Shown here: positions 13,691 to 16,483 of the stretch, one piece after another
How positions within the stretch are numbered: position 1 is the first letter of the stretch
How the letters are laid out: each line of letters starts with the position of its first letter
Assembly (NCBI GenBank): GCA_944326055.1
Contig: CALVCT010000002.1
Coordinates: 1 to 38,159, forward strand
Length of the DNA: 38,159 nt
From: an uncultured Erysipelotrichaceae bacterium
GTDB taxonomy: Bacteria > Bacillota_I > Bacilli_A > Erysipelotrichales > Erysipelotrichaceae
Direction: 5' to 3'
Program-made: the position numbers and the translations under genes
The notes under the pieces: model-generated
Database searches by the model: none
What the model was told of the DNA's origin: nothing
What the model saw: only the letters and a program-made list of their open reading frames with translations

Positions 13691-13699
13691 AGCGATAAG

Positions 13700-13722
13700 A
13701 GCTGGGTGACCAGCTTTTATTA
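13700..13722 (+). terminator. Intrinsic terminator after pgi
   Basis: A 6-bp stem AGCTGG/CCAGCT with loop GTGA (13700-13715) is followed by a T-rich tail that abuts the -35 box of the next unit. Confidence 0.8.
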
Positions 13723-13751
13723 TTGACAATGATTAATACACATAATACAAT
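13723..13751 (+). promoter_or_regulatory. Promoter of the GntR-ABC operon
   Basis: Consensus TTGACA (13723-13728), 17-bp spacer, TACAAT (13746-13751). It is strong in its boxes and overlaps a 9-bp tandem repeat array, so tight regulation is likely. Confidence 0.85.
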
Positions 13752-13768
13752 TAATACAGATAATACAG
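13733..13768 (+). repeat. Four 9-bp tandem repeats over the promoter
   Basis: The unit (A/T)TAATACA plus one variable base occurs at 13733, 13742, 13751 and 13760. It covers the spacer, the -10 box and the transcription start. It probably forms the operator of the GntR protein encoded just downstream. Confidence 0.8.
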
Positions 13769-13780
13769 AAAGGAGAAGTA

Positions 13781-14137
13781 ATGTTTACGATCAATCTACA
13801 TGGTAAAGAATCCATTTATGAACAGATCAGATCGCAGATCATCCGATTCATCAAGATCGGTATCTTACAGCCTGATGATAAATTGCCTTCTGTAAGAGAG
13901 CTCTCTATGGAACTGGGAATAAATCCAAATACTGTTCAAAGAGCTTATAGTCAACTGGAAAGTGATGGTTATCTTTACATCTTATCTAAAAAGGGCGCAT
14001 TTATCGCCGACCGTCATGTCGATAAAGATGAGATGATAATCTCGTTTAAAAAAGAAGTGATACATTATAGAGATGAAGGACTGACTCATGAAGATGTCCT
14101 TAAGACGATAGAAGAAGTATATGGGGGTAAACAGTGA
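13781..14137 (+). CDS. GntR family regulator, YtrA subfamily
   Basis: DNA-binding repressor of 118 residues. The N-terminal winged helix-turn-helix (about residues 10-72) has the signature IYEQIRSQI, DKLPSVRELSMELGINPNTVQRAY, GYLYILSKKGAFI. Only a short helical tail follows, with no ligand domain, as in YtrA-type regulators. These usually sit at the head of an ABC transporter operon and control it, as in B. subtilis ytrABCDEF. It is followed by an ABC ATPase overlapping by one base. It likely binds the tandem repeats in its own promoter. AAAGGAGAAG precedes the start. Confidence 0.92.
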   Translation: MFTINLHGKESIYEQIRSQIIRFIKIGILQPDDKLPSVRELSMELGINPNTVQRAYSQLESDGYLYILSKKGAFIADRHVDKDEMIISFKKEVIHYRDEGLTHEDVLKTIEEVYGGKQ

Positions 14138-15018
14138 TGTTAGAAATAAAAGGTCTTGATAAGAGTTTTGAAGATAAACAGGTCCTCAAAGATCTTGATA
14201 TGCATCTTGATGATGGACATGTCTTTGGACTTGTTGGGGTAAATGGTGCAGGCAAGAGCACACTATTGCGCTGCATTGCTGGTGTCTATATGTGGGATGA
14301 TGGTGTCATTGATTTTGATGATGTCGATGTTCGCGATGCTAGATGCCGTAAGGATATCTTGCTTATCGGTGATGATCCTTTCTTTCAAAGGACAAGTACG
14401 ATCGAAGATATCATCAGTTTCTATGCAACTTTTTATAATTTTGATAAAGAAGCTTATTATCGCTATCTGAACATGTTCAAACTTGATCCTAAAAAACCAC
14501 TCAATTCTTTCTCCAAAGGTATGAAAAGACAAGTCTTCCTCATCGTTGCTTTAGCGATCAGACCAAGGCTGCTCTTGCTTGATGAAGCTTTTGATGGTCT
14601 TGATCCTTTGACAAGACTTGACTTCAAGCGAGCTTTGGCTGAGTTATTGAATGACGACAAAGTCTCAGTCATCATCTCAAGCCATAACCTCAAAGAGCTT
14701 GAGGATATCTGTGATAGCTTTGGTCTGCTTGAAGATGGTAGGATCAAGACTTCAGGTGATCTTGATATCTCTAAGGCGATGGTCAATCGTTATCAGATCG
14801 CTTTTGATAAAGAAGTCACTAGAGAAGATTTCGATGATCTAGATGTTCTTAATTTTGCAAGTTCAGGACGCATTGTCACCCTTGTCATCAAAGGTGACGA
14901 AGATAAGGTACTAGAAGCTATTGAAGCTAAGGATCCTCTATTGGTCGATGTCTTACCTGTCGACTTTGAAGAACTTTTCATCTATGAAGTAGAAATGCGA
15001 GGTACGATCGATGAATAA
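14137..15018 (+). CDS. ABC transporter ATP-binding protein (YtrB/BcrA-like)
   Basis: ATPase of an exporter-type ABC system. Walker A GVNGAGKST has Lys40, the signature is the variant NSFSKGMKRQ, Walker B is LLLDEAFDGLDP, and the switch His is in SSHNLKELEDICD. A C-terminal extension of about 80 residues follows, as in bacitracin-type and YtrB-like ATPases. The ATG overlaps the regulator stop (TGATG) after GGGGGT; a GTG three bases earlier is an alternative. It overlaps the permease by eight bases, so all three genes are one unit. Substrate unknown; relatives respond to cell-wall antibiotics. Confidence 0.9.
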   Translation: MLEIKGLDKSFEDKQVLKDLDMHLDDGHVFGLVGVNGAGKSTLLRCIAGVYMWDDGVIDFDDVDVRDARCRKDILLIGDDPFFQRTSTIEDIISFYATFYNFDKEAYYRYLNMFKLDPKKPLNSFSKGMKRQVFLIVALAIRPRLLLLDEAFDGLDPLTRLDFKRALAELLNDDKVSVIISSHNLKELEDICDSFGLLEDGRIKTSGDLDISKAMVNRYQIAFDKEVTREDFDDLDVLNFASSGRIVTLVIKGDEDKVLEAIEAKDPLLVDVLPVDFEELFIYEVEMRGTIDE

Positions 15019-16483
15019 AACTTATTTTCAATATCTGTTACGCTCTAAGCGCCATTTGAGCATCTTCTTGATACTTATCGGACTATTACCGACTTTCGTT
15101 TTCATCCTAGAGTATGGTAGTTATGATCAAAATAGAAGCCTAGATCTAGCTCTATCGATGGTGGTCTTCATCAGTTTTATCGAGGCTTTGATATTGCCTT
15201 TTATCTACTTTAATTTCTTACAATCAAAAAGGGCTTTAGATACATATTATAATCTGCCTATAGATAGATCGAAGCTCGTGATCACAAACTTCATCCATAT
15301 GTATCTATCAGTCATCGTTTCTTTACTTATTGGTGTCACCATACCTGTCTTGATGACGATATTTAGTGCCGTTTCACCGTTTTTCATCCTGCCATTTTTC
15401 ATCTTTATGGCTATAGGTATCGCGATGATCATGCTTTATGTTTTAGCTATCATCTATAAGACGTATTCGATCATCGATAGTATCCTTATAACTATTGCTT
15501 ATCTTTTGATCCCTGTGATCTTTACGCTCGCTCTATCGATATTTGAGGATACCCAAGTCTTTATGAGTGTCAACTCATTCGAACTTGTCTTCAAATATGC
15601 CAATATGCCAACAGCTTATTTCGTTCCGCTATTCTCGATGATCGATATTATCACTTTTAGTTCGACTTTTGTAGATATCGGATATGGTCTTATGATCGAG
15701 ACGATCTTGATCGCGCTTGTCGCAATGATCTCTATCAGAAACGATATCAAAAAGCGAAAGGCTGAAGTGTCTGAAACTGTTTCTAATAATTTCTTTGCTT
15801 ATCCATTAGCTTTAGGTCTAGGTACGATGGGCATGTTTTTGATCGTCGGTCTTTCGGGGCTCGATCTATATATGATGATGATCTTATACATCTTCATCTT
15901 CATCGCTTATCTCATCATCACCTTTATCTATCGAAGAAGGATAACTTTTAAAAAGAAAGATATCTCGCTTTTTGCAGGCGGCATCATACTTTCGGTATTT
16001 ATTTTGATGGTCGCATCCAATACTGATGCCTTTGGTCTATCAACGAGATACCGTAGTGTCAAAGAAATAAGAAATATGAGGATACAGATGCAGATCGATA
16101 GGATGGATGTTGAAGATAGCGCTAATTACACAGTGACTATTGAAGATTATGGTACTAGCGATCAGGATATCATCGATGAATTCATTGCGTACGAGGATGT
16201 ACTATATGATAGATTCAAAAGCGATGGCTATGACTATGATCCAGACTACAACTTATATGTATGGACTGATATGTATTATCAAGATGAACATTATAATAAC
16301 TATAGTTATCACGATTCGACTCTTGGAGATGTATCTGATAAAACAACACTTGAAAATGCACTGTCTTTGATCGAGATATTCAAGGATGATGCGACGGTCA
16401 GTAAGTACACATACGATGAAGCAACGGGCGAGGAAGAGTTTGTAGCGATCAGTGTGGAAGAACTTGTCAATGAACTAAGATGA
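15011..16483 (+). CDS. ABC transporter permease with extracytoplasmic tail
   Basis: Integral membrane protein of 490 residues with several hydrophobic segments spread over about residues 15-345, partner of the preceding ATPase. The motif DTYYNLPIDRSKL after the second segment is typical of the YtrC/YtrD-like permeases in GntR-regulated operons. After the last membrane segment (about 320-340) come some 150 soluble residues, predicted outside, including a stretch dense in Tyr, Asp and Asn (about residues 405-445). Relatives with an appended outer domain exist (DUF6449-like, from memory), but I cannot confirm the family. It may sense or bind an envelope ligand. Confidence 0.8.
   Translation: MNKTYFQYLLRSKRHLSIFLILIGLLPTFVFILEYGSYDQNRSLDLALSMVVFISFIEALILPFIYFNFLQSKRALDTYYNLPIDRSKLVITNFIHMYLSVIVSLLIGVTIPVLMTIFSAVSPFFILPFFIFMAIGIAMIMLYVLAIIYKTYSIIDSILITIAYLLIPVIFTLALSIFEDTQVFMSVNSFELVFKYANMPTAYFVPLFSMIDIITFSSTFVDIGYGLMIETILIALVAMISIRNDIKKRKAEVSETVSNNFFAYPLALGLGTMGMFLIVGLSGLDLYMMMILYIFIFIAYLIITFIYRRRITFKKKDISLFAGGIILSVFILMVASNTDAFGLSTRYRSVKEIRNMRIQMQIDRMDVEDSANYTVTIEDYGTSDQDIIDEFIAYEDVLYDRFKSDGYDYDPDYNLYVWTDMYYQDEHYNNYSYHDSTLGDVSDKTTLENALSLIEIFKDDATVSKYTYDEATGEEEFVAISVEELVNELR

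Follow-up and report, generated by a model that had tools for sequence, protein, structure and literature searches.

The question raised by this locus is how a GntR-family regulator of the YtrA type might recognize an operator whose half-sites all point in the same direction. Long palindromes are the operators reported for the YtrA subfamily (PMC4494728), and B. subtilis YtrA binds AGTGTA-13bp-TACACT (PMC8060467). In the window, i.e., the whole analysed stretch of 38,159 nt from an Erysipelotrichaceae genome, we found four 9-bp units with the core TAATACA arranged head-to-tail at positions 13733–13768, where they overlap the promoter of a GntR(YtrA)-ABC operon. A sequence-only reading of this DNA had pointed to a four-copy 9-bp array on a consensus promoter and to a layout unlike that of known YtrA operators; the first observation proved exact to the base, and the B. 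subtilis site bears out the second.

All elements of this region lie on the forward strand. Unit 1 (TTAATACAC, 13733–13741) occupies the spacer between the -35 and -10 boxes, unit 2 (ATAATACAA, 13742–13750) provides the -10 box, unit 3 (TTAATACAG, 13751–13759) covers the transcription start predicted from the -10 box, and unit 4 (ATAATACAG, 13760–13768) closes the array; all four units were read from the sequence. The -35 box TTGACA (13723–13728), recognized in the sequence and by a promoter consensus scan, and the -10 box TACAAT (13746–13751), composed of the TACA core of unit 2 and the following two bases, form a promoter with a 17-bp spacer and 11/12 consensus matches in that scan (TTGACA-17-TACAAT). 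The sequence AAGGAG at 13770–13775 resembles a Shine-Dalgarno element. Tandem Repeats Finder describes the array both as 2 x 18 (score 65) and as 4 x 9 (score 51), and of the 26 rows that it lists for the window these two score highest. Across the four copies, within the 90-bp stretch 13691–13780, seven of nine columns are identical. Not one of 20,000 dinucleotide shuffles of this stretch attains the observed period-9 match level (shuffle maximum 4), and none of 3,000 shuffles gives the same fraction of identical columns at any period from 5 to 14. Searched exactly, the four-unit string has a single match in the window, on one strand only. A search of the 81-contig genome for further copies of the unit, as the sequence-only reading had proposed, returned the exact two-unit pattern at this site only (3 overlapping matches); the remaining 24 matches carry 2 mismatches each, while the reversed control pattern gave 40 matches.

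The alternation of T and A at the first base of units 1–4 had been read correctly, but the doubled 18-bp unit suggested on its account does not hold. The T at 13751 is no sign of such a unit, because it is the last base of the -10 hexamer. A T after the -10 unit is fixed by our selection rule for relatives' arrays and the other units alone are informative: the unit upstream of the -10 unit begins with T in 8 of 45 of these arrays.

The gene following the array (13781–14137, + strand) encodes a GntR-family regulator of the YtrA type, 118 aa in length, with an N-terminal winged helix-turn-helix (wHTH) domain (PF00392, residues 13–75, E 1.6e-15). Its AlphaFold2 model (pLDDT 88) comprises a winged helix (helices 12–26, 38–45 and 49–61; wing strands 65–68 and 72–75) and two C-terminal helices (82–98 and 103–114), i.e., the short two-helix C-terminal domain of the YtrA subfamily, and the closest solved folds are 4ham, 6sbs (YtrA of S. 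acidocaldarius), 3by6 and 3neu. The next ORF encodes an ABC transporter ATPase (14134–15018, + strand; PF00005, E 1e-23), an operon order that fits the YtrA subfamily. It is followed by a 490-aa putative membrane partner of the transporter (15011–16483, + strand), whose membrane character was judged from the translation and which gave no Pfam or NCBIfam match. A search of the same genome with the regulator gave two further matches, both of low significance (5.4e-6 and 0.001) and in longer open frames (258 and 270 residues); judged by size, the protein looks like the sole YtrA-type regulator of its genome. TGTA-N13-TACA was not found within 150 bp upstream of the GntR gene (best match with 2/8 mismatches), and since this long inverted operator is missing we classify the regulator as YtrA by protein, not by operator. 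The locus shares with the YtrA subfamily (Suvorova et al., 2015) the GntR wHTH, the two-helix C-terminal domain, the regulator-ABC order, the half-site TARTACA and likely autorepression. In contrast to that subfamily, it has no inverted half-site, carries at least two half-sites head-to-tail at exactly 9 bp, and encodes Lys for Gly in the wing.

The wing turn of the regulator reads KKG (K70-K71-G72, codons at 13988–13996, + strand), with Lys70 replacing the usual Gly at a position that corresponds to Gly-66 of FadR (FadR numbering from Table 1 of PMC4494728, matched by eye). The wing Gly (HTH position 59) of FadR and AraR contacts the backbone or bases and contributes to preventing a clash; G is recognized by Arg residues of the HTH (PMC4494728). 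A wing Gly is usual in the YtrA subfamily, yet it is not given as a defining trait in the literature available to us. No KKG wing occurs among the solved structures of the five best sequence matches with alignments. Arg39, the likely counterpart of the G-reading Arg of FadR and AraR, and the PNT motif are invariant in alignments of 14 and 29 sequences.

We compared wing residue and operator layout in 155 distinct loci of YtrA-type regulators, fetched by protein and blind to the DNA. They represent the best 30 loci from each of three protein searches and the best 80 of 592 from a fourth, the query of which was built from 14 Lys-wing proteins with known arrays and therefore enriches the Lys-wing type. 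Ten loci in which the regular expression found no GntR protein were dropped (L240, L264, L269, L274, L276, L279, L280, L282, L283 and L285), further matches (L198–L203) were excluded, and the homologue counts depend on script-chosen start codons, so that some rows may be wrong. The 64 Lys-wing rows, all KKG, possess the 9-bp direct repeat TACA-N5-TACA in 62 cases and the exact TGTA-N13-TACA in 3. Among the other 91 rows (GKG 45, GRG 28, TKG 8, GLG 5, AKG 3 and ARG 2, or by wing residue Gly 78, Thr 8 and Ala 5), 62 carry the inverted site; direct repeats occur in 17, of which 15 combine them with the inverted site, and 27, including the TKG group, show neither operator type within 150 bp. The first 110 loci show the same division: 27 direct pairs and one exact inverted site for 28 Lys-wing rows vs. 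57 inverted sites and 15 direct pairs (13 loci with both) for 82 others. With near-copies removed, 139 rows are left (56 Lys-wing and 83 others), in which the direct repeat is present/absent in 54/2 Lys-wing loci vs. 17/66 others and the inverted site in 3/53 vs. 56/27; Fisher tests on these splits take no account of relatedness among the loci. Viewed from the operator, Lys stands at the wing in 51 of 53 non-redundant loci with a direct pair alone, and a non-Lys residue in 56 of 59 with an exact inverted site. One Lys-wing locus (L043) has a degenerate array and another (L286) has none.

The inverted operator is thus missing from nearly all Lys-wing loci. When homologous operons with the same regulator but without the repeat were looked for, the repeat turned out to be kept in 62 of 64 Lys-wing homologues. 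The array is very probably, as had been proposed, a regulatory site of the adjacent YtrA-type regulator. The half-site TA[AG]TACA is identical in both wing classes and only its arrangement differs; hence, the word has been kept and the grammar changed. In the eight TKG-wing loci (L080, L088, L093, L096, L102, L103, L109 and L112) the 150 bp upstream contain neither a direct pair nor an exact inverted site; these regulators may not be the first gene of their operon. Four loci of non-Lys-wing regulators (L057, L077, L097 and L213) have an inverted site extended by 9-bp direct boxes, and to judge by their sites they are possible evolutionary intermediates.

We also searched the DNA of 272 genomes of the family, blind to protein, for the three-unit pattern TRRTACANNTRRTACANNTRRTACA. 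It matches in 85 of the 272 genomes and its reversed control in 0. We counted 89 array places and inspected 88, all but that of G210 at a contig end, with L119/L197 counted once as the same locus and L144 resolved to a Lys-wing GntR gene. In 82 of the 88 the array lies directly upstream of a Lys-wing GntR gene (one of them KRG), and in two others (L124 and L142) before a GntR gene cut by the contig end. The rest precede VanW-like genes (PF04294; L162/L287 and L163/L289) or a family-2 glycosyltransferase gene (L192/L288), or have no clear gene beside them (L196, 1/88). Beyond the family, 7 of 196 genomes match in Oscillospiraceae, the family of G312, which was chosen for having an array and is one of the seven (reversed control 1 match); five of the seven matches precede a Lys-wing GntR gene, one a GRG regulator with inverted and direct sites, and one lies elsewhere. 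Among 160 genomes of the order to which an Anaeroplasma genome belongs, 9 match (reversed control 0), 6 of them before Lys-wing GntR genes and 3 elsewhere. The matches without a GntR gene outside the family are L208, L218, L221 and L224. The data show the array, its phasing on the promoter and its conservation, and the tie to Lys-wing YtrA proteins recurs in three bacterial groups. As for the window's own genus, neither G001 (96% complete) nor G004 (84% complete) has the array pattern, and a close regulator was not found in them (no match, and a best match of 2.5e-11); in G007 the regulator is present and the array is too degenerate for the pattern.

The few arrays before VanW-like genes (two genomes) and the glycosyltransferase gene (one genome) would suit a different protein, e.g., a response regulator, reading the array with the GntR gene as an operon passenger, the more so as several response regulators use direct repeats (PMC5859096). 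We consider this improbable, given that the array is followed by a Lys-wing GntR gene at 82 of 88 places, that the array half-site is the half-site of the YtrA inverted operator, and that Lys vs. other wings splits direct from inverted operators. The arrays before the VanW-like genes in L287 (G182:C30) and L289 (G183:C5) have five exact units and a degenerate sixth, which suggests that the regulator of these species could also control a second, cell-envelope gene. The array of L288 (G026:C6) comprises 4 units with, by eye, the same -35/-10 phasing, and an ORF on the opposite strand resembles a transposase by eye.

Placement of the arrays was determined in 126 distinct Lys-wing upstream regions, 120 of which gave a promoter by a lenient rule with spacers of 16–18 only. 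This rule still succeeds in 55% of cases after shuffling of the 5' flank, while promoters scoring at least 2 make up 64% with real and 3% with shuffled flanks. In 76 of the 120 promoters the first base of the -10 hexamer coincides exactly with that of a unit's TACA, compared with 22% of shuffled-control promoters; the commonest -10 hexamers are TACAAT (39), TATAAT (27), TACACT (24) and TACAGT (11). The array overlaps the region from -35 to +10 in 117 of 120 promoters vs. 68% in the shuffled control. Of 86 Lys-wing genes with sufficient flank, 85 stand ahead of an ORF that contains a Walker A motif; 40 others had too little flank. The 16–18 scan being narrow by construction, the real test of spacing is a free scan from TTGACA (one mismatch allowed) to a -10-like unit: it peaks at 17 bp (49 loci), with 16 bp in 2 loci and 18 bp in 11, and has a second peak at 26 bp (19 loci) that corresponds to the next unit. 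The number of exact units per promoter is 4 in 56 of the 120, 3 in 37, 2 in 25 and 1 in 2. Four is the commonest number; yet four units are not essential, as the 25 two-unit arrays indicate. The idea of the sequence-only reading that gain and loss of units may shift promoter spacing between strains found no support, for the unit number varies between species (compared with one genome per species) and the free scan nonetheless peaks at 17 bp.

These counts also bear on whether the array is a neutral minisatellite left by replication slippage, with no regulatory role. Its units are near-identical, and at least one array found by the pattern (L218) resembles a plain minisatellite. For the arrays as a whole we find this barely credible: the 17-bp spacing to a unit is conserved, the array stays over the promoter across many genera, and it is tied to one type of regulator. 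A local minisatellite was rejected on the 0/272 of the reversed pattern, the tie to the wing class and the conserved 17-bp spacing. We likewise regard action of the repeats at the transcript level, as leader RNA instead of DNA sites, as most improbable. The predicted start does fall close to or ahead of units 3 and 4, and the last unit touches the ATG in L013 and L014, but units 1 and 2 sit in the spacer and the -10 box, and in a group from the Anaeroplasma order (L266, L268, L271, L272 and L273) the -35/-10 spacer holds both units.

The most serious alternative concerns geometry. Ordinary symmetric YtrA dimers could bind units 18 bp apart (1+3 and 2+4), or one unit and non-specific DNA, with no head-to-tail contact. 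The helices of a C. glutamicum YtrA-type dimer are 62 angstrom apart, about two turns and near 18 bp (PMC6746942), NanR dimers bind asymmetrically (PMC8012715), and L043 retains an 18-bp pair though its middle unit is degenerate. We scanned pair distances from 5 to 40 and retained those common to at least 3 loci. Among the 56 Lys-wing loci, TACA-TACA distances of 9, 18, 27 and 38 occur in 54, 45, 25 and 3, respectively, and the TGTA-TACA distance of 17 occurs in 3, compared with 56 of the 83 others. The 45 loci with distance 18 and the prevalence of four exact units (56/120) would suit such dimers. Yet the 9-bp pair in 54 of 56 loci leaves 18 without 9 in at most 2, the 25 of 120 loci with two exact units mostly offer no second pair, and the strict 9-bp period favors contact between neighbors. 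Since two-unit arrays exist, bridging over 18 bp in its pure form conflicts with the data, and binding by symmetric dimers appears possible but rather unlikely.

Head-to-tail assembly has precedents outside the YtrA subfamily. In print, direct repeats are known for FarR, NagQ, NanR and MocR-type proteins, i.e., for a few FadR-, HutC- and MocR-type GntR regulators (PMC4494728). E. coli NanR places three dimers cooperatively on (GGTATA)3, binds poorly to one repeat, and binds more weakly with longer spacers (PMC8012715). Its repeats are 9 and 8 bp apart. Our regulator resembles this member of the FadR subfamily in having a GntR wHTH and head-to-tail repeats, here four at 9 bp vs. three in NanR. 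NanR needs two or more repeats and binds them cooperatively, as our regulator may do too. NanR differs in its FadR-type ligand domain, its 32-residue N-terminal extension held to mediate cooperativity, its wing Gly and its repeat; the 118-residue protein, with its first helix starting at residue 12, has neither such a ligand domain nor such an extension. In BldC, one wHTH protomer occupies each 9-bp direct repeat, the repeat number varies, the recognition helix enters the major groove and the wing the minor groove, and each repeat consists of an A/T-rich element and, 4 bp on, a C-G pair read by Arg (PMC5859096). The array shares the 9-bp direct repeats, here four, and by analogy may share the contact between protomers. 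BldC, however, is a MerR-type wHTH protein without the MerR dimerisation domain, while here a GntR wHTH is joined to C-terminal helices.

Direct repeats are also used by FarR/MngR, names that we take to denote one protein, and by NagQ, both of the HutC subfamily and, unlike our regulator, equipped with a HutC ligand domain. The FarR repeat TGTATTAWTT (PMC4494728) is nearly the reverse complement of the unit described here. E. coli NanR and MngR keep the wing Gly (by eye from translations; GSG in MngR), so Lys is not required for direct repeats generally, and we rejected the notion that Lys70 marks direct-repeat GntR proteins in general. Closer to YtrA itself, weaker half-sites beside palindromes are reported (PMC4494728; PMC6746942): additional boxes of YtrA-type sites lie 7–12 nt from the site centre (PMC4494728), and for YtrASa of Sulfolobus acidocaldarius extra half-sites were shown to add affinity (PMC6746942). 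Similar to these, our arrays place extra half-sites in direct orientation beside a half-site. In contrast, the boxes of YtrASa and of Suvorova et al. (2015) are weaker and flank a palindrome, whereas here the direct array stands alone.

Taken with these precedents, the array is in our estimate, with a probability of roughly 0.78, the autoregulatory operator of the adjacent 118-residue YtrA-type GntR protein, which would bind it cooperatively and head-to-tail at a 9-bp pitch. A single winged-helix domain would use each 9-bp unit, with the consensus TARTACA and mostly GA or GT thereafter, as its half-site. The C-G pair of TACA is predicted to be recognized by an Arg of the helix-turn-helix, and the wing, in which Lys70 takes the place of Gly, would sit in the A/T-rich minor groove of TAR. 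Protomers would pack one-way, head-to-tail and cooperatively at the 9-bp pitch over the spacer, the -10 box and the transcription start, excluding RNA polymerase and keeping the regulator-ABC operon silent until a signal releases them. As to stoichiometry, one dimer might serve two units, or each unit might receive its own dimer as in NanR. Placement over the promoter would fit repression by exclusion of polymerase, and activation is unlikely. We favor cooperative one-way assembly because NanR and BldC provide two solved precedents, while for the 118-residue protein itself we infer binding, head-to-tail geometry, cooperativity, repression, a role of Lys70 and an inducer. The modelled protein still has dimerising C-terminal helices suited to an inverted site, which counts against a one-way array.

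Besides position 70, which tops the class-separation ranking by construction as the classes are defined on it, positions 73 (Ala/Val/Ile vs. Ser/Cys/Thr), 25, 9, 17 and 5 separate the two wing classes; lying in the wing and the first-helix region, they are plausible contact surfaces for the neighboring protomer. A tree of the 139 rows (117 columns, wing masked), built by a quick method and with many unresolved forks, needs 2 changes for the Lys wing and is compatible with 1 origin. The tie between Lys70 and the array would therefore count as a single event in evolution or as two, and Lys70, possibly a bystander, need not be the cause of the direct layout. A bolder proposal, to which we give somewhat less than even odds, is that a deep YtrA branch gave up two-fold symmetric recognition, its Lys-wing domains assembling one-way like a BldC filament made from GntR parts and keeping the ancestral half-site in a new arrangement. 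If true, the wing change and the operator change together would toggle between two operator grammars, inverted and tandem, and this switch could be re-enacted experimentally.

The array appears to be a real, conserved operator array with a layout new for the YtrA subfamily. Pure direct-repeat operators are not described in the YtrA section of PMC4494728. The main text of open-access papers gave no prior description of a direct-array YtrA system among the matches listed, and the repeat string had one match, in an unrelated Dictyostelium paper. Because this YtrA branch is widespread and combines purely head-to-tail operators with an unchanged half-site and a single fixed substitution in the wing, it is a compact system for testing how a regulator family changes its operator symmetry. 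For regulon annotation of Firmicutes regulator-ABC operons we suggest the rule that a Lys wing predicts TARTACA every 9 bp and a Gly wing TGTA-N13-TACA.

Several minor features were seen in individual loci. In Oscillospiraceae arrays (L229, L230, L232–L235 and L244) there are four positions; by eye, degeneracy recurs at the second of them, as though a weak unit were maintained deliberately. L208 (G361:C2) contains several TGATACA repeats in both orientations, iteron-like and with no adjoining GntR gene. In L012, L013 and L014 the last unit abuts or almost abuts the start codon and we see no Shine-Dalgarno sequence, which suggests that the leader of the regulator mRNA may be very short. In the window, a hairpin with a T-rich 3' arm (13694–13721, + strand) ends just 5' of the -35 box. 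Its predicted fold (-16.7 kcal/mol, z -5.7) is equalled by 0 of 200 shuffles, and it is absent from the list given by the consensus scan. It is probably the intrinsic terminator of the upstream gene, which from its translation we take to be pgi, encoding glucose-6-phosphate isomerase. A terminator-like hairpin abuts the -35 box in a similar arrangement, by eye, in L010, L011 and L040, and a T-tailed perfect hairpin lies within 45 nt of the -35 box in 36 of 118 Lys-wing promoters, a raw count with no control.
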